Of a stretch of DNA of 64,000 nucleotides, positions 21,506-64,000 are shown piece after piece. Location: positions 136,501-200,500 of the forward strand of contig JAQISU010000171.1 of NCBI GenBank assembly GCA_029339505.1. Reading direction: 5' to 3'. The notes under the pieces are model-generated. The model saw only the letters and a program-made list of their open reading frames with translations. It ran no database searches and had not been told where the DNA came from. Origin of the DNA: Unio delphinus (Eukaryota > Mollusca > Bivalvia > Unionida > Unionidae). Position 1 is the stretch's first letter, and every line of letters starts with the position of its first letter. The translations under genes were made by a program, and so were the position numbers.

Positions 21506-21527
21506 CACCCCCTCTGCTGCTAACAGG

Positions 21528-21944
21528 TTAACCGAATATTTTATCAAGTCCGACACGATATCGTGTCCGAGGATCTGATAAATTTATTGTCACAAATCCA
21601 TGTGGGATTGACTGAGCATGACTAAAGAAATTTCTAAATCGATTATGATCCATATCACCGCTGCACCAAGTTTGCCAAATATTTCTAAGAGTATGTGTGT
21701 CAACTCCGTTAAACACACACAATAAATTGCAGTTATCTCTGATCACCTTCGGAATTTGTGTGTATCGTTGAGTGACATATATCACATCAGTGTTTTCATG
21801 TCTGCCTCTGGAAAATATCCTAGCAGGATTCTTTTGATTGTCTAACATCCCATCATCATATACGACTAAGTTGTTAATACTTCCATCGATAGAATCAATG
21901 CTCGGTGCTTCTTCGGTATCGGTTATAAATTCAATAATACCTTT
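21528..21944 (-). pseudogene. Truncated A32-like packaging ATPase
   Basis: The C-terminal two-thirds of the ATPase found complete at 51700-52365. The last 106 residues differ at only eight positions (my count). The Walker B segment survives as VVYDDGML instead of VVYDDIML. The DVIYVTQRYTQIPKVIRDN sensor region and the GLDKIFG end are intact, with no stop. Homology ends near 21944, so the N-terminal part with the Walker A P-loop is absent and the fragment cannot be a working ATPase. It is evidence for a second insertion of the same element family, truncated during or after integration. Confidence 0.9.
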
Positions 21945-35689: not shown

Positions 35690-38115
35690 AAGATCATCGG
35701 TCTGGAACTATTTTGGATATCTTGTGGAGTATGAGAATGGAGTAAGAAAAGTAGACAAGTCCAGGTGTGTTTGCAATCTGTTTTACAGCTCTTAGGAATA
35801 CTGGAAACACCACAAATATGTCTACACATTTAAAACGGCACCACCCAACCATTGCCATTGGAATTCCTTTTAAAGATGACAAGATTTCAGCTCCCAAGGT
35901 CAGTGTTTCTCCTACTCCTAAGCCATCACATCTAACAACCACTGGTCATCTCAGATTGTCTGAAGTTTTTCAGTCTCCGTTAATTCCATCATCGCAAAGA
36001 TCACAGACAATCACTAAGCATAAAGCGATGTTTATTGCACATGATATGTGCCCTTTCTCAGTGGTTGATTCGCTAGGTTTCAGAAATCTGATTCGTACCC
36101 TGGAACCTCGCTACATCATCCCATCAAGAACACACTTCGCAGAGAAAGTTATCCCAGACCTATACCTTCACACCAGACAAGAAGTGCAAAGCACCATATT
36201 CGAGGCAGAATCAGTGGCCATTACTACAGATGGTTGGACTTCAAGGGCTACTGAGAGTTACATAACAATCACAGCTCACTTGATTGATAAGGAATGGTGC
36301 ATGAAAAGCTTTGTTCTTCAGACGAGACCTTTACACGAGTCTCACACTGGTAAAAATATAGGAGCAGTACTAGTTGATGCCAGTAAGGAATGGCAACTGG
36401 AAAGGCCCCACAAGTTACTCCCCATAGTAACAGATAATGCTGCTAACATGGATGTTGCTATTCAAGAGGCAAAGTTGACACCACATATCAAGTACTTTGC
36501 ACATACTATAAATCTAGCAACCCAGAGAGGGTTGCAAGTTCATCAGATGTCACGCCTTCTTGGAAGGATCCGGCACATTGTCTCGTTTTTCCATCGCAGT
36601 GCAACTGCTACTACCCTGCTGAAATCCAAACAAGAGCTGTTGCAGCTTCCTAAACACAAACTTATCCAAGATGTCAAGACACGTTGGAATAGTTCTTATG
36701 ATATGATTGATCGATTTTTAGAGCAGCAGCCTGCCATTGTAGCTACTCTATTAAGTAAGGAAATCAGACAGAGGGAGACGGATTTAAACACTTTATCAGA
36801 GGATGATGTATCAAATGCAGAGGATATTCTCAAACTGCTCAAACCAATGAAAACCATTACAACGATATTGTGCGATGAAGCAGCACCTGCCATATCAATG
36901 ATTTTTCCTCTTAAACATCGTATTATTAGTGCATTGGAAGTGCCAGAAAGTGACTCTGCACTTGTGAAGGCAGTCAAGGTGGCAATCTCCCAAGACCTAG
37001 ACAAAAGATACAATGACAAGGATATGCAGCAGTTTCTGTTGCAGAGTTGTTCCCTAGATCCAAGATTTAGGGCTCTAACTGATGTAGACGATGCTACAAG
37101 GATCCAAATATATGCTTCCATTGTCATGCAAACAGTGAAGGTCAATGAGGTAAGTAAAAAATTTACATATGAGTATCGTTGTGTTATCTACGTGCAGCAG
37201 TTGAAGTATAACATAATATTATTGTCCCCATTCAAGATTTTAAGGATATATGAAATTTATTTTGGTAGTTAAAATTGGACACTTGTCCCCAAAGGTTACC
37301 CTAGATGCACCACTGATCTTGGTATGCCCCAGAGTCACCTTCAAAGTTCTTATGTCATCCGATTCTCTCCATCTCACTCTGAAACACTGACATACACACA
37401 CAGAGACACATAGAGCAAACACACAAACTATTATATAACTTCATTGTTTGAAGTTCATAACTTCATATGCACAAATATTTCTTAATATTCAATATTGATC
37501 TTATATTGATAAAATAATGTTTTTTTATATTAAATGCCAGTGAATTAATGCTAAAATGTTAATTAACATAAAGTTGCGAGATTCGTTTTAACTTAAGGAG
37601 TACATATTATATAATTTTTATTTTTATTACAGTGTGAAATAGTAGAGAAGACTGATGAACTCACTCATATACTACCATCTAGTCTTCCCCCACTACCACA
37701 GCTTCCTGTAGTACAAGTTACAGAACTAGAGAACAGACCAGCAGCAACAGCGAAGGTTGCAGTTGATGAGCTCCAGTGAAAAAGGGTGCACTTGAAGATC
37801 TTTTTGGAGATGTGTACGTGGTCAAGATGGAGCCATCAAAGTCCCTCTTTCAGAGGGCTGACACAGAGATAACATGTTATAGGAATGAGACATCTAGTAT
37901 ACATATTGGTGACAATCCACTGATGTGGCGGAAATTCAACAAAACATCATTCCCTTTGCTGGCCAAACTAGCCAAGATGTTGTTGACTATTCCAGCAACA
38001 TCAATGCCATCTGAAAGAGTCTTTTCAACTGCTGGAGATGTTGTATCAGCACAAAGAACCTCTCTGACTGGGGAGAATGTAGATATTTTGATTTTTTGAA
38101 GAAGAATATGAAACT
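35690..38115 (+). pseudogene. hAT transposase (ZBED1-like), broken
   Basis: A BED zinc finger is split over two frames: VWNYFGYLVEYENGVRKVDK with RCVC near 35700-35775, then TNMSTHLKRHH near 35815. The catalytic domain follows in a long open frame to 37149, with TTDGWTSR (first Asp), VTDNAANM (second Asp) and VKTRWNSSYDM. A consensus donor (GTAAGT at 37150) and acceptor (ATTACAG ending at 37632) suggest an intron of about 480 bp. The C-terminal hAT dimerisation segment is at 37776-38099, with FPLLAKLAKMLLTIPATS and SERVFSTAG. One-base shifts in the finger, near 37777 and in a T-run near 38095 mean this copy no longer encodes one continuous protein. The family acts by DDE-type cut-and-paste transposition. 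Confidence 0.9.
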
Positions 38116-46427: not shown

Positions 46428-46760
46428 ATGGTGATATAGCTATATCATTCGGAAAATTATCAGAACTCCATGGGCTAAATACCCAATAGAAAAATACCTT
46501 CCTTGATTTAATTACTGTGGTTCTGGAACCAGACTTGCCAAACGAACGAGATCAAACAAAACCTGGAGAGTATCCAGTAAATGATATTGTCACGTTCATG
46601 ATGTATGAATTTTTTTAAAAAACATTTACAACATCGATATATTGCAGATGTAAATTTGATACACTTGTTAGATTTTTAAAAAAATCTTTCAGAATAGCAT
46701 TAGCTAATTGTTAGCTAGATCCGAAATTAAAGGTAAACTAGTGCTAGGGTATGGTAGATA
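46428..46760 (+). pseudogene. Relic of a parvovirus-type phospholipase A2 domain
   Basis: Three frames together follow the PLA2 gene at 52577-52933: GDIAISFGKLSE, then TPWAKYPIEKYLP, a stop, then FNYCGSGTRLAKR (the calcium-loop region YCGxGTR), and a disrupted HDV-type active-site region near 46600. LQHRYIADVNLIHLLDF follows at 46633-46685, where the better copy has LQHRHLADVKLIHALN. The stop and shifts make it non-functional. No integrase or ATPase is attached, so this is a separate, older relic of an element of the same kind. Confidence 0.8.
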
Positions 46761-50584: not shown

Positions 50585-51000
50585 TCACAGTTTTCCTTCA
50601 ATCATAATTTCTAGTCGATCTATGTCAGAAAGAATATTATTAGGACAAGTAACAAGATCACTTCCTTGAGTAGAAATACTTCCGGTTGCTCCCTTTTCTT
50701 GTTTTTGATTTGTGGATACCCTAATCTTTCGATCAATTGATACTATTTTTTTCAAATTTAATAAAGTATGGATCATCATCGTTGGCATGTTCCTTACCTT
50801 TAAAACGAGATGCATGGCATTATTCCAATTTTCATGTTTTATGCTATTGAGAAACTCGTTTTTATGTACAGTTTTTTTTTATTATAGTTTGCAGCTATAT
50901 CGAATGCTTTTTCTAAAGAATTTAATTTGGAAATAACTCCAGGAATAAATATAGATTGAACAGAAGGTGGATATTTTTGTTGTGTGTTTTGATGATCGTG
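50585..51000 (-). pseudogene. Decayed paralogue of the 188-residue element protein
   Basis: The minus-strand frame at 50815-50585 ends in LVTCPNNILSDIDRLEIMIE. The intact gene at 61294-61860 has SATCPGNILSDISQLEVLIG at the same relative place. Upstream, in other frames, are QSIFIPGVISKLNSLEKAFD and NEFLNSIKHENWNNAMHLV, loosely matching the intact protein's N-terminal half. Several frame changes are needed. It shows either a gene duplication within the element or a second element fragment abutting it. Function unknown. Confidence 0.6.
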
Positions 51001-51666
51001 ATTGCTGTTGTGATGGATCTACCTGACTTATTGATTTTTTAAATAAACTTTCTCTTTACATTAATATAATTTGGATCATTAATATCGGCTAATTATTTTT
51101 TTAAATTATAAATAAACTTTCTTTTTACATTTAATATAATCTGGATGATTAATATCGGATTGTTTATTTTTATAAATACTATATGTATCATGAATTCCGG
51201 TATCAAAAGACGTTTCATCAACATATTTGGGATTTTAAAAGGAATATTACTTAATTCATATAGTGACGCCGTTTATCCTGGGTCCATTGTACAACCGAGA
51301 AGAAATTTAATAGAATCAGGTTTAAATTTAGTTTTAATCTTATAAAGTTGTTTCTTTGTGTGTGTTGAGTTTCAATTTCTGGAAGAGGCGGGGGAAGTGA
51401 AATACTTGAGAGGATGAAGGAGGCGATTTAGTAAGTGGAACTGTCGACATATCAATTTCCTCCTTCTTTGCTGTTAGTTTATCTACTTTGTCAGGAAACT
51501 TTAAAAAGTCTGGATCATCATTACTAATACCACTCCTTTTATGACGAATTCTAAAGATCATCTTAAGCAGCAGAGAGGGTGAATCGGACAACGTTTTTAG
51601 AAAAATTTTACTACTGCATTTCTTATGAGATCTTTCAAACAAAATGGATTGCAACGTCGTTGTCAC
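51001..51666 (-). CDS. Hypothetical element protein with DDPxF-type repeats, partly decayed
   Basis: The frame 51666-51340 (108 codons, ATG start) lies 33 nt beyond the ATPase stop on the same strand. It is basic, with ISNDDPDFLKFPDKVDKL near its middle. Further along the strand in other frames are SDINHPDYIKCKKKVYL and NDPNYINVKRK, so a short module (D/N-D/H-P-x-Y/F-I/L-K) seems to repeat. I do not recognise the family. Position after the ATPase suggests a structural or accessory virion protein, which is inference only. It may once have formed one longer gene with the decayed region to 50585. Confidence 0.45.
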
Positions 51667-51683
51667 TCACCCTCTCTGCTGCT
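51566..51683. repeat. 17-bp perfect inverted repeat near the ATPase 3' end
   Basis: AGCAGCAGAGAGGGTGA (51566-51582) and its exact complement TCACCCTCTCTGCTGCT (51667-51683), separated by 84 bp. Near-identical motifs flank the ATPase relic elsewhere (21121 and about 21505-21521). It could be a hairpin terminator or an element-specific motif. Confidence 0.7.
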
Positions 51684-51699
51684 ATGGGTTACGGTGATT

Positions 51700-52365
51700 T
51701 CAACCGAATATTTTATCAAGTCCGATACGATATCGTGTCCTAGGGTCTGCTAAATTTATTGTCACAAATCCGTGTGGTTTTGACTGAGCGTGACTAAAGA
51801 AATTTCTAAATTGATTATGATTCATATCACCGCTGCACCAGGTCTGATGAATATTTCGTAGCGTATGAGTATCAACGCCGTTAAATACACACAACACATT
51901 GCAGTTATCTCTGATCACTTTTGGTATCTGAGTGTATCGTTGAGTGACATATATCACATCAGTGTTTTTATGCCTGCCTCGGGAAAATATTCTAGCAGGA
52001 TTTTTTTGATTATCTAACATGATATCATCGTATACCACTAAATTGTTAATACTTCCATAAATAGCATCAATGCTCGGGGCTTCCTCTATATCGGTTATAA
52101 ACTCAATAAAATCTTCATCGATTTGAAATTCTTTTGCTTTCTCGTTAAAATCCTTTAGAACTTCATAGCATCGCTGATCGTCCACACTCGGGGCTATTAA
52201 ATACAATTTGTTCCATTTCATCCATCTCGTTATCAAATTAAGTAGCAGTTGTGTCTTTCCGCTTCCAGATGGTCCGATTATAATCATTCTAATTGAATTC
52301 GGCAACATTTCATGATGTTTAATAGGTTCCCGTCGTCGGGTAGCTGAATAATCAATTATATTCAT
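51700..52365 (-). CDS. A32-like (FtsK/HerA) genome-packaging ATPase
   Basis: A 221-residue P-loop ATPase. Walker A is GPSGSGKT at residues 31-38 and Walker B is LVVYDDIML around residues 109-117. A conserved DVIYVTQRYTQIPKVIRDN segment with the sensor Gln follows. Size and motif spacing match the A32-type packaging ATPases of Polintons, adintoviruses and large DNA viruses, which drive the genome into the capsid. The ATG at 52365 is 17 nt from the divergent start of the zinc-ribbon/PLA2 gene at 52383, and the gap is essentially a TATATATAAA stretch. The frame is fully intact. A truncated homologue at 21528-21944 is 92% identical over 106 residues, so the family spread fairly recently or is under constraint. 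Confidence 0.9.
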   Translation of the reverse strand: MNIIDYSATRRREPIKHHEMLPNSIRMIIIGPSGSGKTQLLLNLITRWMKWNKLYLIAPSVDDQRCYEVLKDFNEKAKEFQIDEDFIEFITDIEEAPSIDAIYGSINNLVVYDDIMLDNQKNPARIFSRGRHKNTDVIYVTQRYTQIPKVIRDNCNVLCVFNGVDTHTLRNIHQTWCSGDMNHNQFRNFFSHAQSKPHGFVTINLADPRTRYRIGLDKIFG

Positions 52366-52382
52366 GCCGTTATATATAAATT
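52366..52382. promoter_or_regulatory. 17-nt divergent intergenic gap with TATA-like sequence
   Basis: The gap between the ATPase (minus) and PLA2 (plus) start codons contains TTATATATAAATT, which can act as a TATA box in either direction. Upstream promoter elements would have to lie inside the opposing genes, as in compact viral genomes. Confidence 0.35.
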
Positions 52383-52933
52383 ATGGATCTATATTGTGTG
52401 AAGTGTAAAAAACGTACTGGCACAGATGACTTGACGAACAGATGACTTGACGACGACTACAACTAAAAATAACCGATCAGCGCTTTCTGGTAAATGCGTA
52501 CAATGTAGTACAAAGAAATTTAGATTTGTTTCCCTTGGTGAAACCAAGGAACCCAAGGAACCTTTAAAAAAAACGAGGAGGTGATATCGCAGCCAAGCTA
52601 ACTAAACTCCCTGGAACCCCATGGGCAAAATACCCTGGAGAAAAGCACCTTCCAGGATATAGCTACTGTGGACCGGGAACCAGACTTGATATCAGACTCA
52701 ATAATCAAAATCAGCCCCGACCCGGTGAAGAACCAATAAATGCCATTGATAAGGCCTGTCGCCTTCATGATGTCTCTTATAAAAGCAGTAATCTGCAGCA
52801 CAGGCATCTAGCAGATGTGAAATTAATTCATGCATTAAATGCTATTCCTGATAAATCTTTCAAAGAAAAATTGGCTTCATTTTTGATAAAATCGGCTATG
52901 AAAAGTAAATTGATGTTAGGTGCTGGTAATTAA
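52383..52933 (+). pseudogene. Zinc-ribbon plus parvovirus-type phospholipase A2 gene, broken
   Basis: The ATG at 52383 starts MDLYCVKCKKRTGTDD, half of a CxxC...CxxC zinc-ribbon-like head; the second pair (KCVQC) follows near 52496-52510. A PLA2 domain then covers 52577-52933: calcium loop YCGPGTRLDIR and catalytic helix ACRLHDVSY with the His-Asp pair, the signature of the PLA2 in parvovirus VP1 that opens endosomal membranes. A similar domain occurs in Polinton/adintovirus-like elements. The reading frame is broken twice: by a 16-bp tandem duplication (ACAGATGACTTGACGA, twice, 52427-52458) and by one base in an A8 run (52566-52573). The PLA2 segment itself is open and keeps its key residues. 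The stop at 52931 lies 7 nt before the integrase start, suggesting co-transcription. Likely a minor virion protein. Confidence 0.82.
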
Positions 52934-52940
52934 TAACAAC

Positions 52941-53888
52941 ATGGAATCTATTTACTATTCTCCAAAAGGATACTGGAGGGGTAAATCAGCAATCCATAAA
53001 CTCGCTAGCGCTGCAAAAGTGAAAAAAACCACTGCGGCTCATTGGTTATCTAAACAGGCACTATGGCAAATTTATCTACCACCGCCTAAACAAATTAATT
53101 TCTCGCATTTTGATGTGACCTTTCCTAATGAAGTTCATCAGGCTGATATATTATTTCTGCCACATGACCACGGTTACAAATACGCATTAACCGTAGTTGA
53201 TATTGCAAGTCGATACAAAGAAGCAGAACCGTTAAAAACAAAATCAGCCACTGAAGTGGCTTCTGCATTTGAAAGGATTTATCGACGAGGTCCTCTGCAC
53301 TGGCCAAATCTATTACAAATTGATCCTGGCAAGGAATTTCAGGGTGCAGTGTTATCAATAATGAAAAATCATAATGTCACTATCAGACGAGGACATACTG
53401 CGCTACATCGTGATCAGGCAATTGTTGAACGGTTTAATAAAACCCTTGCTGAGCGGTTATTTGGATATCAATACGCAAAAGAATTCATCCAAGAAAAAAG
53501 ATCCCGTGAATGGGTTAAAAGGTTACCAGCTGTGATTACTGCACTGAATAACGAGATTACTAGAACAATTAATTTGAAACCTATCAATGCGATTAAAAAG
53601 AAGTCAATACCTGAAATGGAAATTCAAAAAGATTTCAAAGAACCAATTCTTGGTAGTAATATCACTGTTAGGTATTTATACGAACCAGGAGAGCTTGAGG
53701 GTGGCAGAAAAAGGGCTACTGATCCTATTTGGAGTGTTACTGTACACAAGATATCTAGTATAACACGATCTACGGGTAGACCTCCAATCTATAAACTGGA
53801 TTCAACTGCCCCTCAACGAGGATTTACTAGACAACAATTACAAGTGATACCTGAGGATACTCAATTACCACCACGGGGTCTTAACTAG
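52941..53888 (+). CDS. Retroviral-type (rve) integrase of a Polinton/adintovirus-like element
   Basis: 315 residues from the ATG at 52941; an upstream GTG in the same frame overlaps the PLA2 gene and is unlikely. The DDE triad is visible: D69 in HQADILFL, D128 in LQIDPGKEFQ, E163 in DQAIVERFNKTLAERLF, with 34 residues between the last two. This is typical of the RNase H-fold integrases of Polintons, Ginger-type elements and retroviruses, which join element ends to host DNA. The C-terminal part (about residues 235-310) has the small beta-rich look of an SH3 or chromo-like DNA- or histone-binding tail. The frame is intact. It converges on the replication gene: its TAG at 53886-53888 overlaps the opposing stop by 8 nt. 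Confidence 0.93.
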   Translation: MESIYYSPKGYWRGKSAIHKLASAAKVKKTTAAHWLSKQALWQIYLPPPKQINFSHFDVTFPNEVHQADILFLPHDHGYKYALTVVDIASRYKEAEPLKTKSATEVASAFERIYRRGPLHWPNLLQIDPGKEFQGAVLSIMKNHNVTIRRGHTALHRDQAIVERFNKTLAERLFGYQYAKEFIQEKRSREWVKRLPAVITALNNEITRTINLKPINAIKKKSIPEMEIQKDFKEPILGSNITVRYLYEPGELEGGRKRATDPIWSVTVHKISSITRSTGRPPIYKLDSTAPQRGFTRQQLQVIPEDTQLPPRGLN

Positions 53889-56800
53889 CACCGTTGCGTC
53901 TATTGCACTCAAGACAAGTCAACATCACATTATTTCTGACATGACCGAGATTGTTATTTTTTCTGTCAACGGTGAATTGGCGAGGATCCTTATCCGAATA
54001 CTGCCAACGCATTATACAATTGCAACTTGCGCAGTGATTATTCTGTTGTTTCTTCAAAGTGATTATTAATTCAGCATCAATATCAAATTCTCGTTGTTTT
54101 TTTTGTCTTGTTGTTTGTAACCGGAGAGTTTTTTATCAATAATTTTAACATCAATATCATCCATTGTGGTGTCGTTATCATCGAAAACAATTCTTCGAAG
54201 TTGATTTATTTTTCGTACTCTGGATACTGCAAGATAAACTAAATTTGACCATTCGATGCGATTATCTACCATCCAAACAATTGTATCGGATATAGTCAAT
54301 CCTTGCGAAGAATGTATTGTTGCTGCGTATCCTAGCTTCCACGGGGATTTATTAGCACGCAATGCATCTTCAACGACATTGATATCGACCAGCACAATAT
54401 CATTTAATACTAAATTCTGCTTTTCACGTTGTCCAGGAATGTCAACGTCGATATTCTGCTTTCGTGTATCAGATGGTCTATAACACAACGGTACTGGAAG
54501 TGTTGCAAATTTTTGTTTATGCAATTCAAATAACTTCAATTGAAGTGTGTCTCTGACTATTTTTCTACTTGCTATTATCAAATCATTTGGTCTCCACAAC
54601 TCCCAAAAATCATTCATGGGAGTTTCTGAAATTATTTCACGCATTATTTCACATTGGATTCTATCCGGTTGTAATCTGATTAGTTGTTTAAACTCTCGTA
54701 ATATTTCATCTAATGATCTAATGTCATCATTCATCTCTTCGTAATAATCAACGTATGATTTTAACCATTCATGAGGAGGTTCACCGACAAATGGTGGTGG
54801 TTGGCCTTGATCGCCGCACATGATAATTTTTGTATTTTTCGTTGACAACCATTCAAGAAATGTTTTTAATACTTGTAACGGTACCGTGCATATTTCATCC
54901 CATAATATCACCGGTGGAATAAATTTCTGTCCCATTCTTTCAGGGGTCCATTTATCACCGCTCCATCGGAAGAAGCTGTGATAAGTACCAGAATTTTTTA
55001 CATCTCGTTGTTTTTTGTCTCTGGCAAGTTTGTGAGTTGGTGTTAACGCATTCATGTTGATTTTATCCTTGAATAAATTGATTACTCGTGTTGTCTTTCC
55101 TGACCCACCACAACCGTTTAAAGAAACTGTTTTATTCCGGCATATTGGATTAAAACACGGTGGTGCATTAGAAAATTCTGAACACTGATTGCTTTCTAAA
55201 TAATTATTTTCAATCGTAACATCTGCTGATGGAATATAATCATGAAGCATTTCTTTCTTAACTCTCCATGACCCCCAATTCTCGTTGCCAGTAGCCTTAA
55301 AATCAGCCATTTTGCTATTTATGTAAAATGAATCAGTGGCAACTCTAACTACGGTGTTAGGAAATTTATTGATCATCGAAAACAGATTAATAGAAGCATA
55401 ACCAAGCATAGAAGCTCTCAAATGTGTGTACTGCGGATTGTATCCATCATTGTAAGTAACAATTGTACCCAATTTGGTTCCATCGGACATAAATGCGTCC
55501 TTACGATTGACATACAGGCCTTTATTCGTTAAATCCGCGATTACAAAATCGTATTCAGCATTGTCTATAATTAACCGTGAAGAATATCTTGTATTATCGT
55601 ATTTACCACCCTGAGTGAATTTACCGATTATTCTTCGTCCAAGATCTTTTGCTTCATTGTTTCTGATTTCAAATAACTGTTTGGACCAATCCATGATTTG
55701 TTGTTCACTGAAATTTGGAAACAGTTTTCGCTGTTCGCTAATTATTTTTTCTAGATCAGGTTGTGGTAACCAGACTGATTTCTGTGCTCGATAGGATATA
55801 ATTGCTTCACTGACAATTAATGATTTTAACATCTTACAATCAAGCATATACCGTAATAACACTATTGGCATCCAGTGTTTTTCAGACATTTGTTTACCAA
55901 TCCAAAGATAACTACACGGATGAAGTCCTGTAGCCATTTCAAATGATACTACACAAGCGAATCCTGTTAAATCAAAATCAGGCAGTGGTCCATTAATCGC
56001 AACACGGGTCATTTCGTGTGTGGGGTGTCCAAATCGTTTGAAATATTTCTCGCATTCTCCATACCCGAGAAAACTTCCTGGATAACATGCAATCATATCA
56101 ACTGAAATAACGGTTTCAGCGGTGTATTTTGTATTCCATAACCCTCCATGGCTGTATTCAAGACAAGACAATTTGACATCTGATAAAAACTCACTTCGTG
56201 TTGGTTTCCACGCGTTTTTCTTTCTAGCAAAATGTGCTGCAATTGATGGTAGTGTAAAACAGTTTGCTAATAATTGATCGTTGTCTTCCCCCTCCCCAGA
56301 AAACTCACTAGCTAGTTGTTTCATTTGATTATGCAGCTCTTCAGTACGGTACAATTCTCCGTTGGGCCTTACAAACTGATCAAATCTACATTCCTCGTCT
56401 GAAGTACTATGAAATAGCCACATTGACACAGGATCGTTTTTACTCAAATGGTAAATAGCATCAAATAATTTCTGCTCTGAAAAAAACTCTTCTGTTCCAA
56501 ACAGATATTTTACGGTTCTATCCCGTGGAAATATTGTTACTGCAGATGACCACGCATGTTCGTTATGATCAATAATCTGTATTGGGGCTCCTTTTGATTT
56601 ATATTTCGATTCGTATAATACTTCACCGGTGATTGTCGTTACTGATATTGGAAATCTCAATGATGTTTCTAATTTAGCTATATCCTGAATTGTTGCCCCA
56701 TGCTGTTTCAATGTCAGTTCCCATTCGGTTATTTTTTTTCGTCTTAGATCAGTTAGTTTATTTCCCCGTGACGCATTTGTGAAGTGTTCCATTATTCGTT

Positions 56801-57321
56801 CTGCTACACAATTGAGCCCTGTCGAATATTTCATGGGTGCTAGTTTTGCAATATCAGGGTTGTCATTGAGCGGATATATCCCGTAAACAACTGCTGTGAC
56901 AGGATAAGATCTTTCGTAGTATGGTTTGTCAATTCCAGTCAAAATTCCTGGTTTTGAATCCTGAGTCACAGTGACAGTTTTTTTTGTCCTTGAGAATGGG
57001 TTCGTATTTGTCCCTAATGATCCATTTTCCATCATCACGGATAAGGAATTTGATTCGAAAAAAATTTCTTTCTTCCCCAAGATTTGAGATTATCACTGCT
57101 GCTTTTTCATCATTCATGGTAGCGTCAACAACACCATCAATTCGAAATGTTGACCAACAATGAGCTGCCCCATCACGCTTGAATTCATTAAAACAGTCTC
57201 TGATTTTACTAATCAAGGTTCTATCAAGAATTTTATTCTTTGGTGTATCAGAAACTCTATCAAGATTGAATTGAACACTTTTCCAAGGCTTAATTTTCGA
57301 TAATCTCTCAAACTCCTCCAT
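53881..57321 (-). pseudogene. Fused family-B DNA polymerase, SF1 helicase and HNH nuclease, broken in two places
   Basis: One gene read over three frames, about 1,145 codons. The N-terminal part starts at ATG 57321. Polymerase motifs follow: SVDMIACYPG (motif A, about 56080) and VRVATDSFYI (motif C, about 55325). Next is an SF1 helicase: Walker A NGCGGSGKTT (about 55100), ILWDEI (about 54895), GDQGQPPPF (about 54810), TIHSSQGLT (about 54300) and YLAVSRVR. The C-terminal HNH (53881-54100) has HCASCNC, QFTVDRKNNNLGHV and TCLECN. From memory, homologous proteins in the fungus Rhizophagus have the same domain order through the HNH, so the pieces belong together. Breaks lie in two A8 runs (T8 on the plus strand, 56978-56985 and 54097-54104). 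The TTG start of the longest frame (57080) is not a real start. The role is element DNA replication. Confidence 0.85.
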
Positions 57322-57345
57322 ACTATAATTAAAACAAGCATTTAA
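57322..57345. promoter_or_regulatory. 24-nt divergent gap between the replication and zinc-finger genes
   Basis: Contains TACTATAATTAAAA. It is the only non-coding DNA between two divergent start codons, so promoters for both genes must overlap it and the flanking coding sequence. Confidence 0.3.
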
Positions 57346-57687
57346 ATGAAAGATTTAAGTATAATGAATCATTGCAAATGGCTCATGATTGGATCAGTGA
57401 CACCGTGTAACAAATCATGCAGAAATGAATTCTGTGGGAACCATATGCAAAGCTTTCGTCGTGGAAGCCTTGGTCCGTTACCCTGTATTCGATGTGGGGT
57501 TGGGGTCAGGGGGAAATCGCAGTTATGTCTAAATTGTGGCGGCAAACGATACAGGGAACTAAAACGCTATTATGACAAACGAATAAAAAATACCGTCATT
57601 GATCCTACCGATGACAAAATCATAAAGACCCCTCAAGATTATATACAGAGACTTATAATTAAACCAAATAATGAATTAGAAAAATAG
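57346..57687 (+). CDS. Cys-rich zinc-finger protein of a virus-like element
   Basis: 113 codons from the ATG at 57346, or 107 from the ATG at 57364. Two metal-site clusters are visible: C10-x10-C21-x3-C25-x4-C30-x2-H33, then CIRC (47, 50) and CLNC (61, 64), the latter a treble-clef or zinc-ribbon pattern, followed by a basic KRYRELKRYYDKR stretch. I have seen this layout in small proteins of invertebrate and fungal virus-like elements, next to the same polymerase-helicase, but cannot give a family name. DNA binding or a transcription role is inferred. Frame intact; the stop is 13 nt before the HNH gene. Confidence 0.75.
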   Translation: MKDLSIMNHCKWLMIGSVTPCNKSCRNEFCGNHMQSFRRGSLGPLPCIRCGVGVRGKSQLCLNCGGKRYRELKRYYDKRIKNTVIDPTDDKIIKTPQDYIQRLIIKPNNELEK

Positions 57688-57700
57688 TATTATTATACAA

Positions 57701-58165
57701 ATGAACCAAGAATTCAGACCTCACCCCGTGCTTGTTAATTATGAAGCATCCCGTGATGGTATTATCAGACACCGCAGATTGAAGAATCCAGTTGGATTTG
57801 TGACTAATCGAGGGTATTTGAGGTTTTCTGTTGGGAAGAAAAATTATTACTGTCACAGATTCGTCTTCGAGGTGTTTAATGGAATAATCGGGGATGGTTT
57901 TGTTATCGATCATATTGACTCCGATTCTCAGAATAATTTTTTATCAAAACTACAGGCGATTTCACAAAGTGAGAATTTAAAACGAGGAAAAAATGGAAAA
58001 TACTCGAAAAAAGCGAGGCCTATAAAATCATTAAATACAGTTACTAACGAAGAAAAAATATTCCAATCTATGAATGAAGCCGGTAAATATTTCAATATTT
58101 GTATATCCTCAGTACAATTTGTTGCAACAGGAGTACAAAATTCGGCTTTTTCTAAAAAAATTTAA
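57701..58165 (+). CDS. HNH homing-type endonuclease with NUMOD modules
   Basis: 154 residues. The N-terminus VNYEASRDGIIRHRR resembles a NUMOD4 motif. The HNH core is CHRFVFEVFNG (H52), VIDHIDSDSQNN (H71) and SQSENLKR (N92), matching the HNH_3 type. The C-terminal half (RPIKSLNTVTNEEKIFQSM and FNICISSVQFVATG) resembles a NUMOD1 helix-turn-helix DNA-binding repeat. This architecture is typical of homing endonucleases in phages and large DNA viruses, which cut a specific site and spread themselves by repair. It is unlike the HNH tail of the replication protein (C-x2-C type). Frame intact. No intron or intein was seen around it, so it would be a free-standing nuclease gene. Confidence 0.88.
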   Translation: MNQEFRPHPVLVNYEASRDGIIRHRRLKNPVGFVTNRGYLRFSVGKKNYYCHRFVFEVFNGIIGDGFVIDHIDSDSQNNFLSKLQAISQSENLKRGKNGKYSKKARPIKSLNTVTNEEKIFQSMNEAGKYFNICISSVQFVATGVQNSAFSKKI

Positions 58166-58200
58166 CAAAAAAATTCGATTTTCGTATGTCAAATAACACC

Positions 58201-58255
58201 AAGGGAGATAACTCTTTCATAACCCTTAAATATAACCAAGGGAGTTATCTCCCTT
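58201..58255. repeat. 14-bp inverted repeat AAGGGAGATAACTC
   Basis: AAGGGAGATAACTC (58201-58214) and its perfect complement (58242-58255) with a 27-bp loop, 36 bp after the HNH stop. Could serve as a terminator hairpin. The motif is one I associate with abundant mollusc intergenic repeats. Confidence 0.75.
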
Positions 58256-58725
58256 AGATTGTGTCGGGTTATTGTGATTCAGCGGCGGGGTATTGTTTTG
58301 TAAGAAAAGAAATCAAATATAAAATGTTTTCAAACAATTATATTCTTTTTTTTAGTGTTTAAGTCAAATATTCGGTCTCATTTAAATACTGTGAAACAGC
58401 ATTAATAAGTAATTCAAGAAAATAAAATAACACACCCTGTGGATTGCTGTATTAAGTCACCTTACATACTCTCTCCCTTAGATTGTGTCAACTTGTTTTA
58501 TGGGTTATCTCCCCTTAAATTGTGATGCAGCGGCGGGCATTGTTTTGCAAGAAAAGAAATAAAATATAAAATGTTTTCAAACAATTATATTCTTTTTTTT
58601 AGTGTTTAATTCAAATATGCGGTCTCATTTAAATACTGTGAAACACCATTAACAAGTAATTCAAGAAAATAAAATAACACACCCTGTGGATTGACGCTGC
58701 TGTATTAGTCACCTTATATACTAAA
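58256..58725. repeat. Two direct repeats of about 215 bp
   Basis: 58256-58470 and 58488-58725 share TTAGATTGTGTC, CAGCGGCGGG, AATATAAAATGTTTTCAAAC, CGGTCTCATTTAAATACTGT and AATAACACACCCTGTGGATT with few differences, so the duplication is recent. Confidence 0.88.
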
Positions 58726-58759
58726 TGAAAAGTTTAAAGCTGGGCTTTCGAAAGCCAAT

Positions 58760-58862
58760 CCGACCAATCAAAAATAACCCACGCCATTTACACGTGTGCG
58801 TGGTTGACTTTTCTCAATCATGCAACCGGGTTTAATTTCATGGGTTGCTTTTGATTGGTCGG
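58760..58862. promoter_or_regulatory. Inverted repeat with paired CCAAT boxes
   Basis: CCGACCAATCAAAA (58760-58773) and its exact complement (58849-58862) are extended inward by AACCCA/TGGGTT (58776-58781 and 58841-58846). The arms face each other over about 60 bp containing ACACGTGT at the centre. CCAAT boxes in both orientations suggest a bidirectional promoter or a replication-related palindrome between the element's two gene blocks. Confidence 0.5.
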
Positions 58863-58949
58863 ATGGCCGTAGAAAATCCGCCCCCGTCGATTCATGTTTG
58901 TGCTGTCTTGTGCCGTCCCATCATCATTACATCACCATTGAATTATAAT

Positions 58950-59130
58950 CCATCCTTAATTAAGTTAATTAAGTATATGTATACCTACAATCTGCCACAA
59001 CACTCGAGTGGAGATATATACGGTATTGTACTGTCCTTAATTAAGTATATGTATACCTACAATCTGCCACAACACTCGAGTGGAGATATATACGGTATTT
59101 GTACTGTCCTTAATTAAGTTAATTAAGTAT
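58950..59130. repeat. Tandem repeat of about 75 bp, 2 copies plus ends
   Basis: Two copies of a segment with TATACCTACAATCTGCCACA, ACACTCGAGTGGAGATATAT and TTAATTAAG borders. CTCGAG and TTAATTAA palindromes recur at fixed positions. Confidence 0.85.
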
Positions 59131-59654
59131 ATGTTGTGACGTCACCCCCCAAGCATATCTTCTGGGCGGTCTAAGATGGCGTTTGCCACGTTAGGCATCC
59201 CTTCCGGAGATGTATGTTTCGTGGTTCCTTTGGGCTTACTTGGATGTGAAGGCAACCAAGGAGTTCCAAAGATGTGTTGTCGTATATATGTAACCTCTAG
59301 GTCATTTTCACGTAAACATACCCTCTTGTGATTCTAACCCGTTATTTGACGAGTTAGATTCACTCTTAGGGGAATATGTTTCCGGTGAATGTAAATATAA
59401 ATGACCTAAAAAAAATAACATCCATGGATGTAATTAGCTCTACGTCACATTTGGGTAGCCCCGTATGGTGTTCAAAAATGAATTACCGGCCAAAAGAAAC
59501 GGTCATAGGGTCAAATCGAGATTGAAGAAATCTCAGGAAAAAAAATGGAAATTTGAGAAAAAATACTCAAAGAAAGAACCCTATGAAAGACACAGTGGCC
59601 TATATCAAGGGGGGCCAAATGACTGACAACCGCTCATCATGGTTGTTATTTATT

Positions 59655-59880
59655 TTTGTCTGCATTTATTTTAAAAAATATATTTATATATACAGAATTA
59701 TTTTTAAAAAATATATTTATATATACAGAATTATTTTTGAAAAATACATTTATATATACAGAATTATTTTTAAAAAATATATTTATATTTATATACAGAC
59801 TGAATTCTGAAAAATATATTTATATTTATATACAGAATTAATTTTAAAAAATATATTTATATACAGACTGAATTTTGAAA
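59655..59880. repeat. AT-rich tandem repeat, about 33 bp, 6-7 copies
   Basis: Unit TTTTTAAAAAATATATTTAT plus ATATACAGAAT, with length variants. The short frames across it (KYIYIYRI repeats) are not genes. The strand-separating character would suit an origin, but that is speculation. Confidence 0.85.
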
Positions 59881-59935
59881 ATATTAACGGCTCATTTATT
59901 TTTGAAAAATGAATTAGAAATATGTATTATCATAT

Positions 59936-60262
59936 ATGAATTCTGAAAATATGAATAACATTATAGTTGAAATTGCAAAATTGAAAAGCCAGGATATTAG
60001 ATTGTCAGATGGGTTAAATCCTGATCAAATCAAGTCGGATTTTCAGGATATAGAATATGGTGTTAGCACTAACAAGTATATGCTACCTAAGAAATATGCA
60101 CTCATCAAAAAAATTCAGAATTCTATTTGGGACTCTCTTGCATTTTCCAGTGAAGTAGGTGTGTTTGTTCCGTTATATACTATCGTGGAGGGAATACGAA
60201 AAGAATTGGGTAACGAATATGAATTGAAAAAGGAAGTTAATTCTAAAATTAGAAACCTATGA
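59936..60262 (+). CDS. Hypothetical 108-residue element protein
   Basis: The ATG at 59936 starts MNSENMNNIIVEIAKLKSQD; the predicted protein is mostly helical and charged, with VGVFVPLYTIVEGIRKELG near its end. No known family is recognised. It is the first plausible gene after the repeat-rich gap, on the same strand as the structural genes, and its residue composition looks protein-like rather than random. It may be an element gene of unknown role or a chance frame. Confidence 0.4.
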   Translation: MNSENMNNIIVEIAKLKSQDIRLSDGLNPDQIKSDFQDIEYGVSTNKYMLPKKYALIKKIQNSIWDSLAFSSEVGVFVPLYTIVEGIRKELGNEYELKKEVNSKIRNL

Positions 60263-60891
60263 GCGTTAATTCAAGAAAATGAACGATTTTGATTGACCGA
60301 CCCTCAAAAGATTTTGTCATTTTTTCTACTTGACCGTAAAATCTCCTTGAGATTTTCATTTTTTTTTGCATTTTTTGATTGAATCAGTGAAAATATTTCA
60401 CACTGCGAAAATAAACTTTTAAGAACTTTTCCCTATGGAAAATCCAATGCAAAATCGACTACTTGACCCTACGAGGTTTTTTTTTTTACCAAAAATCGAT
60501 GAAAAATGACAAAAAATCACTGAAAACAGGCAAAAATTGATGAAAAATGGCTAAAATTCATCAAAAATGAGTTTTAACAGCTTTTCCCTATGGAAAATCC
60601 TATGTAAAATCGACTACTTGACTGTAAAATCTCTAAGGAAAACCACCAAAACTGTCAAAAAATCAATGAAAATCAATGAAAAACCACCAAAAATCAATGA
60701 AAAACCACCAAAAACAGTGAATAAAAAAAAAAAAAATTTCACAGCAATAAAAATAAAAATATTTCACAGCAATAAAAATAAAAATATTTCACAGCAATAA
60801 CAAATTGGACCGTTAAGGGAAGGTTCCAATTAGTTAATCATCGATGGGAAAAATTGTTTTGCAATTGAAAAATGGTTTCTGATTTCAAATA
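60263..60891. other. Non-coding, low-complexity spacer
   Basis: Dominated by diverged copies of AATCAATGAAAAACCACCAA-like sequence and a ctCACAGCAATAAAAATA-type 18-bp repeat at 60737-60800; two CCCTATGGAAAATCC segments (60430 and 60586) also repeat. No gene. Confidence 0.6.
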
Positions 60892-61272
60892 ATGGTCAAG
60901 GAAGCATTAACGACCCGATTGGCTCGTGAAGGATTAGATGCAATTTAGAAATTTATACCAATTCGCGACTCTGTCAGGAATAAACTGCAACAACGACAGA
61001 GTCTTCATACTGATTTTGCTGCGGGATCTGAAGAGTTGTTTAAACTAATAACTACAACAACGAAACAGATAGTGTCAACAATCTCTGAACAAGGAAAAAA
61101 ACAAGAAGAGACTTTTCTCCCTGTGTTAGAAAAAATAGCAAAAAGAACTAAACAAACAAAAAAGTCTTTAGAAACACTTCCAGTAGATATAGTAGCTACT
61201 TCACGGCAACAACAAAAAAAAGAGCGAGTACTAGAAGAACTAGGTGCTACTACAAGAAAACAAGCAGAGTAA
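60892..61272 (+). pseudogene. Coiled-coil element protein with an in-frame amber codon
   Basis: The ATG at 60892 opens MVKEALTTRLAREGLDAI, then TAG at 60946 (codon 19), then an open frame to 61272. With the stop ignored the product would be 126 residues. It is charged and helical, with heptad-like spacing in KLITTTTKQIVSTISEQGKK and LPVLEKIAKRTKQTK. The stop 21 nt before the next gene puts it in the structural cluster. Likely a scaffolding-like or minor virion protein, an inference from position and coiled-coil character only. The stop could be a simple C-to-T change; the A8 tract near 61215 keeps frame here. Confidence 0.55.
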
Positions 61273-61293
61273 GAAGACGTTACTATAGAAAAC

Positions 61294-61860
61294 ATGTATT
61301 CACCGCAAAGTATATTTTCATACTATGCATACAGCATAATTAAAAATTTTAAAGATGACAATGATTTAATTAACTTTATCGCGCGGAATTTTTCACTCGA
61401 TAAAAGAGAAATAGCTGTAAACAAAGGGTATAAAGAGTATATAAAAAACGACGAGAATTGGATAAAAAAAGTATACCTGGCAAACCGTGGTAGATTTAGA
61501 ATCACAGAAAGTAACCGCAATGATTTTGAGAGTTTTAAAGACAAAGTATTGAGTAAAGTAGAGTATCCAACTGGATTTTTTGGTAAAGAGGAGTCAACTG
61601 GAGATGGGTATTTAGGCAGCGGCATAGTTGAAAACACTAGCGCTACTTGTCCTGGTAACATTCTCAGTGATATATCACAGTTAGAAGTTCTCATAGGAGG
61701 GAAACGAGCCGGAAATAACTCTCCGGAAATAATTAATGAAGCAGCAGATATCTGTAGACGATTATTTGCCGGTGGTATCATGGACATTAATGTATATCGA
61801 AAACTCATTGCTGAATTAGTTGAAAATCACAAAGATGCCCATGGTTATTACAGCGATTGA
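61294..61860 (+). CDS. Hypothetical 188-residue element protein with TCPxNILSDI motif
   Basis: Intact frame from ATG 61294. The N-terminal half is mixed helix (SIFSYYAYSIIKNFKDDNDL); the C-terminal half has TSATCPGNILSDISQLEVLI and ADICRRLFAGGIMDINVYRK. A decayed paralogue with TCPNNILSDIDRLEIMI lies at 50585-51000 on the opposite strand, so this is a real, family-conserved gene. I do not recognise the family. Placement between the coiled-coil protein and the minor virion-type protein suggests a structural or assembly role (inference). Confidence 0.7.
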   Translation: MYSPQSIFSYYAYSIIKNFKDDNDLINFIARNFSLDKREIAVNKGYKEYIKNDENWIKKVYLANRGRFRITESNRNDFESFKDKVLSKVEYPTGFFGKEESTGDGYLGSGIVENTSATCPGNILSDISQLEVLIGGKRAGNNSPEIINEAADICRRLFAGGIMDINVYRKLIAELVENHKDAHGYYSD

Positions 61861-61920
61861 TCACTAATTAAAAAACTACTAGTTTTATAACAAGATGATT
61901 ATACACTACAATCATGATAA

Positions 61921-62340
61921 ACCAACCCCGTCTATGTAGTTAATTCACGGTTTCCAGTTTATAGAGCATACTACGGAGATGGTTTAGGTAATACCATTGC
62001 AGGGTTATTTGCAAGAATGGCCCCAAAAGTGATGCCGTTAGCTAAACAATTAGGAATGAAAGCCATTGATGTTATTCGTGATAAGGGTATTGGTGCTGTT
62101 GGAGATCTTGCGGGAAAAGCGTTTTCAACTGCGAAGAATAAAATAACATCATTAGTGAGACAAAAAAAGAAACAGGTACCATTGCCATCTACAGCGGAAA
62201 TGCCTGCAAGTGTTAGTAAAATTATAAATAACGCAGTAGAACAGAAACTATCATCGCTGGGGACTCCAAGTGACCAGGATAACATGATAGCAAACATGAC
62301 AGCAGGAAGTGGCTTTAAAAAACCACGACGAAAACGCTAG
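61921..62340 (+). CDS. Small basic minor virion/core-type protein
   Basis: The ATG at 62017 gives 107 residues, but the same frame is open back to 61921. The upstream part (FPVYRAYYGDGLGNTIAGLF) reads like the start of the Gly-rich, amphipathic minor virion proteins of Polinton- and adintovirus-like elements, so the true start may have been lost or shifted. In that family a GDGLG-AGLF-like N-terminus, a hydrophobic helix (MAPKVMPLAKQLGMKAIDVI) and a very basic tail (here KKPRRKR) are usual and recall adenovirus core proteins. The role is probably DNA condensation or membrane interaction inside the particle. Start uncertain; the rest of the frame is intact. Confidence 0.65.
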   Translation, partial: TNPVYVVNSRFPVYRAYYGDGLGNTIAGLFARMAPKVMPLAKQLGMKAIDVIRDKGIGAVGDLAGKAFSTAKNKITSLVRQKKKQVPLPSTAEMPASVSKIINNAVEQKLSSLGTPSDQDNMIANMTAGSGFKKPRRKR

Positions 62341-62424
62341 CGTTTTTCACGATGAAATCCTACAATTAGCAATGAAAATCTTTTACGATGAAAATCCGAT
62401 TTAGACTCTGATAAATAGAATAAA

Positions 62425-63840
62425 ATGTTTAAACGAACAGCTGATCCCGCGCTTGATATGGAAGCCAAAGTGGGCAAGGACGATTCAGTCCGCGATTTTC
62501 AATTTTATTCTTATCACGCAGCACAACCAGATCTCCGATCACGAATTGAACTTCAAGTTCATGATACCAGTAAATACTTTTTGCCTTGTGAAGCGTTTAT
62601 CGAAATCGAAGGTGAACTCGTAACCAATGTTGCAGCTGATACCCCCTACGACAATAACCCGACTATTAAAGTTGGTTTTGTTAATAATGGGATCATGGCG
62701 CTATTTGAAAGTGCAAGATATCTCATTGATGGAAAAGAAATTGAATCCATTGATCGTGATGTTGATGTGGCCACAACAATCATAGGGTTAGCGAGATATT
62801 CTGATGATTATACAAGATCAGCAGGTCCATCTATGATGTTTTCTAAGGATATTACTGATCACCCTGAACACGTCCAGTATTCTAGAGTCAAGGCAACACA
62901 TGCTTCTTCAGTTAATCCAGCACCAGCCGGATATACAAGACCAGCTGGTGATTTTGATGTCATAAATAATATTACTAACTACAACCTAGGGTTTGCAACA
63001 CGCGTATTAACGTTGCAAGGACAGCGTCGACAATTTTCATGTGCAATTCCACTGCATCATATATTCGGATTCTGTAGAAATGTTAGAAAAGTTATTTATG
63101 GAGCTAAACACACAGTAGCGCTTGTACGAAAGGGTACTGATAATGATGCAATATGGCGTGATGCTGGGGTTCCCGAGGGTAAAGTCATTTTAACAAAACT
63201 ATCATTATGGATGCCAGTGTTAACTCCATCAATCACAGCAGAAGAAAAATTGTTATCATTTATGGACCAGGGGGGAAAATCATTGTTGAGTTGGTTATCA
63301 GTGACTACGGATATCAAACAGGATAATGTTGATGGTACATTCACTTGGCACCTGGCATCAAAACAAGGGGTTTCAGCTCCATGTCGTATATTTATTGCAT
63401 TACAGAATAATGCACGAGTTGGTACTCAAGAACGAAGTCATATGATATTTGATCAGTTAGGTGTTAATGAAGTCTCACTGAGAATAAACGGCCAACAGGA
63501 ACCATCTGAAGATGTGCAACTTGATTACAATCACAACCATATTTCACGTGTCTATCATAACCTGTTGTCGTTTATGGCACGTGATCAAAATGTGGATACT
63601 GGTTTGCAAATATCACAATTGGATTTTAAAAGCCTCTATCCGATTTATTACTTTTCATTGGAACATCTTGATTTAACAAGACAATCTGTCGTTGATATAC
63701 ACTTTAGAGCCCGTGTAACCCGTCCTGGTGGTATTATTAATTATAGAGCAGTTGCTGTCATTCTCAGTGATAAATCAATGTTGTTAGAAGGAGTTGGCGG
63801 ACGAATGAGACTTATTGATGCACCAGTGGAAAATCTTTGA
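62425..63840 (+). CDS. Major capsid protein, double jelly-roll type (Polinton/adintovirus-like)
   Basis: 471 residues from ATG 62425, intact. The beta-rich sequence contains the segment PLHHIFGFCRNVRKVIYGAK followed by HTVALVRKGTDNDAIWR, then late segments KSLYPIYYFSLEHLDLTRQS and VVDIHFRARVT...AVAVILSDKSM. This set of motifs, in this order, is what I know from the hexon-like capsid proteins of Polinton/adintovirus-type elements in invertebrate genomes; length is in the usual range. It would form the icosahedral shell into which the ATPase packages DNA. It is the last gene before the window edge; protease and penton genes expected in such elements may lie beyond. The assignment is by remembered pattern, without a structure search. 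Confidence 0.78.
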   Translation: MFKRTADPALDMEAKVGKDDSVRDFQFYSYHAAQPDLRSRIELQVHDTSKYFLPCEAFIEIEGELVTNVAADTPYDNNPTIKVGFVNNGIMALFESARYLIDGKEIESIDRDVDVATTIIGLARYSDDYTRSAGPSMMFSKDITDHPEHVQYSRVKATHASSVNPAPAGYTRPAGDFDVINNITNYNLGFATRVLTLQGQRRQFSCAIPLHHIFGFCRNVRKVIYGAKHTVALVRKGTDNDAIWRDAGVPEGKVILTKLSLWMPVLTPSITAEEKLLSFMDQGGKSLLSWLSVTTDIKQDNVDGTFTWHLASKQGVSAPCRIFIALQNNARVGTQERSHMIFDQLGVNEVSLRINGQQEPSEDVQLDYNHNHISRVYHNLLSFMARDQNVDTGLQISQLDFKSLYPIYYFSLEHLDLTRQSVVDIHFRARVTRPGGIINYRAVAVILSDKSMLLEGVGGRMRLIDAPVENL

Positions 63841-64000
63841 TTGAAACTTTATAGCAATTAGATCAATCTGTATTTGTATAATGTCGTATAGTAATATCAA
63901 TGTGTCGTTGACACCTGGTAAGTGTAACAGAATTGTTACCGAGAGGAGGGTGGATTAAATGAACAATACAAACACAATTTGTGAAAGAAAATATAAATTT
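63841..64000. other. Downstream of the capsid gene, window edge
   Basis: No gene begins here. No terminal inverted repeat is seen, so the element presumably continues past the window. Confidence 0.5.

Follow-up and report, generated by a model that had tools for sequence, protein, structure and literature searches.

Genes, ends and state of the element

The window, by which we mean the whole analysed stretch of 64,000 nucleotides, contains the left part of an endogenous element in Unio delphinus that spans positions 51566 to 75972 in extended coordinates, where the window numbering is continued past position 64,000 (Table 1). The earlier note had recognized a Polinton-like set of capsid, ATPase and retroviral-type (rve) integrase genes in the window and proposed to extend the sequence to the right, and in the extended sequence the other end was indeed found, with a protease gene, a penton-position gene and the right inverted repeat.

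Table 1 Features of the element, in window and extended coordinates.
Feature	Position	Strand	Evidence or remark
Left terminal inverted repeat	51566..51743		outer end AGCAGCAG
A32-like genome-packaging ATPase	51700..52365	-	Pox_A32 E 1.3e-15
Parvovirus-type phospholipase A2 (PLA2)	52568..52930	+	PF08398 E 1.2e-12
Retroviral-type (rve) integrase	52920..53888	+	PF00665 E 5.8e-8, over cut-off
Replicase C-terminal HNH domain	53884..54132	-	PF01844 E 0.023, below cut-off; out of frame here
Replicase core: putative vOTU-like region, putative protein-primed-type PolB palm, Pif1-type SF1 helicase	54066..57080	-	see text
Replicase N-terminal part	56929..57321	-	out of frame here; continuous with core in homologues P0001 and P0003
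Small zinc-ribbon-like protein	57346..57687	+	CxxC motifs, direct reading
NUMOD/HNH_3 endonuclease, free-standing, homing-type	57701..58165	+	PF13392 E 4.4e-9; PHROG 59 E 1.6e-21
Conserved small ORF	59936..60262	+	in upstream pieces of other copies, 52-94% identity
Fast-diverging protein pX	60901..61860	+	two ORFs here, the first with an in-frame stop
Basic core-type small protein	62017..62340	+	65-93% identical in other copies
Double-jelly-roll (DJR) capsid protein	62425..63840	+	see text
Inserted LTR retrotransposon	63923..64000 in window, to 72101 extended	-	polyprotein on minus strand
Penton-position gene	74342-75718, extended		in 10/10 downstream pieces, shortened in L030
Right terminal inverted repeat	75795-75972, extended, beyond the window		partner of left repeat

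The left and right inverted repeats are 98.9% identical across 179 nt, with the final codons of the ATPase gene falling within the left repeat, and the element is flanked on either side by the 5-bp target-site duplication TCTTA. Both ends were seen in four copies, and the 5-bp duplication is perfect in three of these, the remaining copy keeping 4 of its 5 bases; the target duplication of canonical Polintons/Mavericks is 5-6 bp. The limits proposed earlier (50585 to 63840) had to be moved at both ends, the outermost left stretch (50588-50878) falling outside the element. Once the 8.2-kb LTR retrotransposon is subtracted, the element measures approximately 16.2 kb. The 1700-nt LTR pair of the retrotransposon is 99.1% identical, and the insertion is absent from the element copies on C101, C95 and C10. 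The window copy is dead: besides this insertion it has two frameshifts in the replicase, and in-frame stops interrupt both pX and the penton gene.

Two ideas about the structure of the locus were abandoned. A circular permutation, prompted by pX halves outside the element, was given up once the inverted repeats had been found; these halves look like the gene of another element, which the present one may have entered. A conserved read-through between the penton gene and its last 70 codons was rejected, the stop being present in the window copy alone (1 of 13 places); the idea had arisen from a fixed gap left by split penton queries.

The other gene products were assigned with varying strength. 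The best PDB match of the PLA2 was a parvovirus capsid protein (weak, E 0.049), in agreement with the parvovirus-type PLA2 of the earlier note, while the zinc-ribbon head assigned to it there was not seen. The PDB matches of the integrase were likewise weak (E 0.49). The zinc-ribbon-like protein, which also occurs in other element copies, matched PHROG 1143 (E 4e-4) over residues 70-93 only, and the NUMOD/HNH nuclease was borne out by its Pfam match. Neither the core-type protein nor the penton-position ORF matched any Pfam model. The protease matched S273R (E 5.5e-6) and, below the cut-off, Peptidase_C5 (E 0.007), and adenain itself at E 0.65 only. Among the fold matches of the capsid are giant viruses as well as virophages and an adintovirus, a mixture that does not place it, and its profile found nothing credible when run against PDB sequences. 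IMG/VR scans, with the replicase among the queries, yielded no confirmed relative.

The replicase chain

The replicase core matched AAA_19 (E 4.9e-8), and its profile matched Pif1 chains (E 6e-7), with Pif1/RecD2 among the matches. The N-terminal part is continuous with the core in the own-genome copy L012 as well, and the HNH domain follows the rest of the replicase without a break in P0001, P0003 and others. In an alignment of 17 rows (the window and 16 homologues) an HNH-type tail is present in 16, being missing from the frameshifted window row alone, and the HNH model matches weakly in 7 rows.

The palm motifs are kept in all 17 rows; in motif C the first Asp is replaced by Ala, followed by an Asp two columns later, and both residues are invariant. 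Foldseek matched phi29 polymerase to the predicted model of homologue P0001 (E 3.9e-6). The predicted model of the replicase is weak (pLDDT 64, pTM 0.35), and since its VIA list of 50 entries covers essentially the helicase part and does not show the palm, the palm assignment rests on Foldseek and the motifs. Together with the profile and fold matches of the helicase these place a palm and then an SF1 (Pif1-type) helicase in one chain, which is the Tlr1-like arrangement. Polymerase activity of the palm and its priming by a protein are putative. Ahead of the palm, the Cys of NCVA and the His of HNxxAW are invariant in 17 of 17 rows, and the conservation of these motifs suggests a vOTU-like protease, in a region where the predicted structure is weak and where no row matched the OTU model. 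No Pfam PolB model, PF03175 included, matched any of the 17 rows, so that this lineage escapes any search based on PolB models only: Pfam recognizes the helicase and not the polymerase.

Relatives of the replicase occur in other animals, namely sea slugs and a coral, and the few named matches carry no fungal name, which leaves the fungal-element module of the earlier note unsupported. Eight of 59 replicase homologues lie on a contig equal in size to that of an integrase homologue, against 0.28 expected, although equal contig size is no proof of linkage: the corresponding match between capsid P0082 and an integrase must be chance, since 1,818 bases are too short for both genes.

Copies in the genome and the choice between explanations

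The U. delphinus genome carries at least 90 scored capsid loci, 46 replicase loci and 124 integrase loci, together with at least 126 further non-overlapping PF21738 capsid loci, which may include other lineages. Could the window then hold two unrelated insertions side by side, a left block from the ATPase to the NUMOD nuclease and a right block with core and capsid, which the earlier note had named as a refuter? The AT-rich repeat stretch at 58.2-59.9 kb separates the blocks, and the outermost left 1 kb does lie outside the element, but gene order and strands upstream of the capsid gene, including the join, recur in 8 of the 10 pieces sampled from other copies (downstream in 10 of 10), and both blocks lie within the one pair of matching inverted repeats and its target duplication. 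As the order is conserved in independent copies, we regard this explanation as refuted, with next to no probability left to it, and the reading of a single integrated virus-like element holds. It is also very unlikely that the element is a canonical animal Polinton or adintovirus with an odd-looking polymerase. Such a reading draws on the Polinton set (rve integrase, A32 ATPase, DJR capsid, adenain/Ulp1-type protease, penton-position gene, inverted repeats and short duplication) and on the adintovirus capsid among the top viral fold matches, but it is opposed by the replicase, which lacks a PF03175 match and carries helicase and HNH in the same chain, as the earlier note had perceived. Canonical PF03175 pPolB was scored at 75 or more other loci, and among the loci listed none comes within 5 kb of the 46 replicases of the fused type or within 25 kb of the 216 capsids, a weak control given that only 3 of these 46 replicases lie within 15 kb of any listed capsid.

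A transposon without virions, spreading within the genome only and carrying capsid genes as passengers, is a more serious contender, if still an unlikely one. It would fit the high copy number, with 123 other scored integrase loci 93-99% identical to that of the window, and the nested or clustered copies in some pieces (L022, L028 and L030). Passengers should drift, however, and the capsid copies are under purifying selection (dN/dS 0.11-0.20 in 21 of 21 pairs from 7 copies), as are the integrase copies (0.11-0.28 in 6 of 6 pairs from 4 copies), with the reservation that the best-ranked copies were used, which favours intact ones; moreover, the core, protease and penton genes are retained in 10 of 10 downstream pieces. 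These data count against the passenger reading. An element with these genes in a single conserved order, with defined ends and target duplication, in many copies and with purifying selection on capsid and integrase, is in our view very probably an endogenous polinton-like virus of approximately 16 kb that resides in a freshwater mussel and has a replicase of the Tlr1 type. More tentatively, and with rather less conviction than doubt, we suggest a separate, still recently active animal virus family that combines the pPolB-S1H-HNH replicase with rve integrase and PLA2, is spread through molluscs and corals, and has a capsid still selected for virions; it would run parallel to canonical Polintons, given the 75 scored canonical pPolB loci in the same genome.

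Likely cycle and comparison with known systems

The cycle of such a polinton-like virus might begin with cell entry by an infectious virion whose double-jelly-roll shell carries a penton and encloses core proteins, and PLA2 would help it through the endosomal membrane. Linear DNA would then be inserted by the rve integrase, with AGCAGCAG inverted-repeat ends and a 5-bp target duplication, and the single-chain replicase (N-terminal domain, vOTU-like protease, protein-primed PolB palm, Pif1-type helicase and HNH) would copy the linear genome, to be packaged by the A32-type ATPase, while the adenain/S273R-type protease would mature the core.

The A32/FtsK-type packaging ATPase and the adenain/Ulp1-type cysteine protease are marks of the Polinton-like supergroup (Preplasmiviricota), and the rve integrase and the inverted repeats with short target duplication are those of canonical Polintons/Mavericks. 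With canonical Polintons, Mavericks and adintoviruses the element further shares the capsid set; it differs from them in the replicase, theirs being a protein-primed PF03175 PolB without fused helicase, a type found elsewhere in the mussel genome. Reports of Mavericks extend across the genomes of molluscs (PMC10294476), and a parvovirus-like PLA2 in some Polintons is already in print (PMC4642659). Adintoviruses, defined in PMC11071296 by an adenovirus-like replicase, an rve integrase and adenovirus-like virion genes, have the integrase and virion genes in common with the element, which its PolB type places outside that definition. Virophages (mavirus, Sputnik) differ in replicase architecture (PMC11071308), and nothing in the mussel element points to a giant-virus helper.

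Closer likenesses are found among polinton-like viruses. OmPLV of the dinoflagellate Oxyrrhis marina is endogenous and joins PolB and SF1 helicase in a single chain, but its helicase is N-terminal, its exonuclease is kept and it has a tyrosine recombinase, whereas in the mussel element the helicase follows the palm, HNH comes next and the integrase is of the rve type (PMC12721341). In cryptophyte polinton-like viruses the SF1 helicase is joined either to a GIY-YIG domain at the C-terminus or to an HNH domain, in some beside an rve integrase; their HNH is N-terminal and their hosts are algae (PMC12220804).

The closest system is that of Tlr1. Tlr1-like replicases, described from the ciliate element, polinton-like viruses and transpovirons, have a palm and then an SF1 helicase in a single chain (pPolB-S1H) with a C-terminal homing endonuclease (HNH or GIY-YIG), a changed first Asp in motif C and a vOTU Cys/His ahead of the palm (PMC11071308), and the Tlr1 element of Tetrahymena shares rve integrase, ATPase and capsid proteins (PMC4642659, PMC11071308). 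The polymerase-helicase-HNH fusion is accordingly not the novelty that the earlier note took it for, and its "distinct lineage" is fair for the host and the combination of modules: the mussel element, likened to Tlr1 by published description, lives in a mollusc, has replicase relatives in other animals, and encodes in addition a PLA2 of parvovirus type and a free-standing NUMOD-HNH protein. The best-ranked titles and abstract openings, in two long lists the top 20 of 1,516 and 25 of 3,019, describe no Tlr1-type replicase in molluscs, and a prior mention elsewhere is possible. Linkage of this replicase, at many bivalve loci, to a DJR capsid and an rve integrase, together with replicase relatives in sea slugs and a coral, would extend the Tlr1-like virus type to animals, and a single genome with both canonical pPolB and a Tlr1-type lineage allows two replication strategies to be compared in copy age, nesting and selection.

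Ends, gene order and surroundings of the element

The mixed viral modules that the earlier note had described at 50585-63840 belong to one element, for which extension to the right of the window yielded the other end, the inverted repeat, a protease and a penton-position gene (see the table). The two copies of the 179-bp inverted repeat are 98.9% identical, and after trimming to AGCAGCAG ends the element is flanked at either side by TCTTA. Both ends were also seen in three other copies, of which two have a perfect 5-bp duplication and the third matches at 4/5 bases; a fifth copy, on contig C58, was excluded from this comparison because its right end lies outside the fetched piece. The element measures 24.4 kb, or approximately 16.2 kb when an inserted LTR retrotransposon is subtracted. 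From its ORF the polyprotein of this retrotransposon appears to be Gypsy-type, and the insertion is absent from the element copies on contigs C101, C95 and C10.

Features of the element and its surroundings (coordinates beyond the window are extended from it).
Feature	Coordinates	Remarks
Element	51566-75972	trimmed
Inverted repeat copies	51565-51743, 75795-75973
LTR retrotransposon	63923-72101	1700-nt LTRs, 99.1% identical
Core-like ORF	72092-72457	right of retrotransposon
Protease	72417-72983	ASFV S273R E 5.5e-6; Peptidase_C5 E 0.007
Two ORFs	73047-74535	between protease and penton-position gene
Penton-position gene	74342-75718	placed by position; no match in family search
pX-like stretches	50588-50878 (-), 76282-76816 (-)	outside the inverted repeats; each similar to a different pX part
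Diverged second PLA2	46447-46755 (+)	left of element; 34% identity, E 1.9e-12
ATPase C-terminal part, penton end, repeat fragments	21102-21908	91% (ATPase) and 91-93% (penton) identity
505-aa ORF	35755-37269 (+)	by-eye resemblance to hAT/BED-type transposase
Long open frames	10895-13595, 14575-15102	short peptide repeats only, minisatellite-like arrays

The left and right blocks could have come from two separate insertions, but pieces fetched from other copies (ten of 10 kb upstream and ten of 8 kb downstream of the capsid gene) argue against this. Gene order and strands equal those of the window in 8/10 upstream pieces, and the core, protease, two ORFs and penton gene are retained in all ten downstream pieces; the two blocks are one element. 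Among these eight upstream pieces the zinc-ribbon ORF was undetected in L025 and L027 and the HNH end in L021, and L023 stops short of the ATPase; of the other two, L022 has a second block in inverted orientation and L028 continues into a more diverged element. The end motif follows after the penton gene in 9/10 downstream pieces (17-mer search, at most 4 mismatches), and in L030 the penton gene is truncated where a neighbouring copy in inverse orientation ends.

Identity to the window is uneven along L019-L027 (integrase 81-95%, PLA2 91-98%, the fast-diverging pX gene 41-82%, the free-standing NUMOD/HNH_3 endonuclease gene 62-69%), a possible sign of rapidly evolving genes or of modules exchanged between copies. 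The pX-like stretches look like two parts of a diverged relative's pX gene that was split by insertion of the element. The fragments at 21102-21908 are a relic of another copy of this element; the second PLA2 is probably from a different element lineage, and the repeat-made open frames are probably not genes.

Copy number, selection and state of the window copy

The genome searched (2,505,324,503 bases, 1246 contigs) holds at least 90 scored capsid loci (91-100% identity, window counted in), at least 46 replicase loci (88-100%) and at least 124 integrase loci (93-100%). PF21738 adds at least 126 capsid loci that do not overlap with the 90 and that may include other lineages. Nei-Gojobori dN/dS values were 0.11-0.20 in 21/21 capsid pairs (seven of eight fetched copies, L004 being omitted for length) and 0.11-0.28 in 6/6 integrase pairs (four copies), in a sample skewed to intact copies because the best-ranked copies were used. 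The window copy itself is broken: its replicase has two frame changes compared with homologues P0001 and P0003, and both pX and the penton gene carry an in-frame stop.

The replicase and its linkage

A search of 5.8 billion proteins gave 60 relatives of the replicase, with Elysia crispata, E. marginata, Sinanodonta woodiana, Desmophyllum pertusum and Thiodiazotropha MAGs as named sources and one further relative from EukProt; those in the Thiodiazotropha MAGs are probably host DNA. Sixteen of the 60 (1,064-1,275 aa) were aligned with the window sequence. An HNH-type tail is present in every one of the 16; P0028 has no N-terminal part. Invariant over the 17 rows are the NCVA Cys, the HNxxAW His, the palm motifs, the Walker A site and a motif C without its first Asp. 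A Pfam search matched PolB in 0/17 rows. A profile search matched Pif1 chains (E 6e-7). With a structure model of P0001 that is weak overall (pLDDT 64), Foldseek found RecD2 (E 4.1e-11), Pif1 (E 4.6e-10) and phi29 DNA polymerase (E 3.9e-6); the 50 entries of a second look (VIA) cover essentially the helicase part, the palm being barely tested there. In copies such as L013 and L014 a basic peptide unit is repeated in tandem within the N-terminal region of the replicase, which is not so in P0001.

Eight of 59 replicase homologues are on a contig of exactly the same size as that of an integrase homologue (120 listed integrases), against 0.28 expected from jittering, and capsid homologue P0079 and replicase P0016 are both on a contig of 37,906 bases. 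We take equal size to indicate the same contig, although for one capsid-integrase pair, with 1,818 bases, the agreement must be a coincidence. P0003 and P0092 (both 5,160) are 60% and 77% identical to the window, which makes the link between integrase and replicase look old.

In the likely cycle, the palm would be active and replication protein-primed, the vOTU-like region would serve processing, virions would be formed, PLA2 would act in entry and the HNH genes would be homing.

Canonical polymerases and known systems

The canonical pPolB family PF03175 has 75 scored loci in the same genome (C69:4172721 and 74 others, L046-L048), 56 of them within open frames of 1,356-1,368 aa. The same loci match a second stretch (profile positions about 8-11 to 213-218), presumably the exonuclease, and the open frames hint at recent activity of another Polinton-type family in this genome as well. 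Each of the 75 is more than 5 kb away from any of the 46 listed fused replicases and more than 25 kb from any of the 216 listed capsids. This control is weak, because the listed loci are minimum numbers and only 3/46 fused replicases are within 15 kb of a listed capsid, and it gives no proof that canonical elements lack this capsid.

Mavericks are reported across mollusc genomes (PMC10294476), a parvovirus-type PLA2 in some Polintons (PMC4642659) and an rve integrase also in Tlr1 (PMC11071308, PMC4642659). Protist elements have helicase domains fused to unknown domains (PMC10120064), and in the OmPLV fusion the helicase is N-terminal, in contrast to the Tlr1-like order (PMC12721341). We found no published description of a Tlr1-like replicase in molluscs, in a literature coverage that is incomplete and may have missed a prior mention. 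Tlr1-like helicases combine variable N-terminal domains, vOTU, a protein-primed palm with changed motif C and an SF1 helicase, and end in HNH or GIY-YIG (PMC11071308). The mussel replicase, with a putative vOTU-like region, corresponds to this plan, so that the polymerase-helicase-HNH fusion is not new, and neither are PLA2 in such elements nor Mavericks in molluscs (PMC11071308, PMC4642659, PMC10294476).
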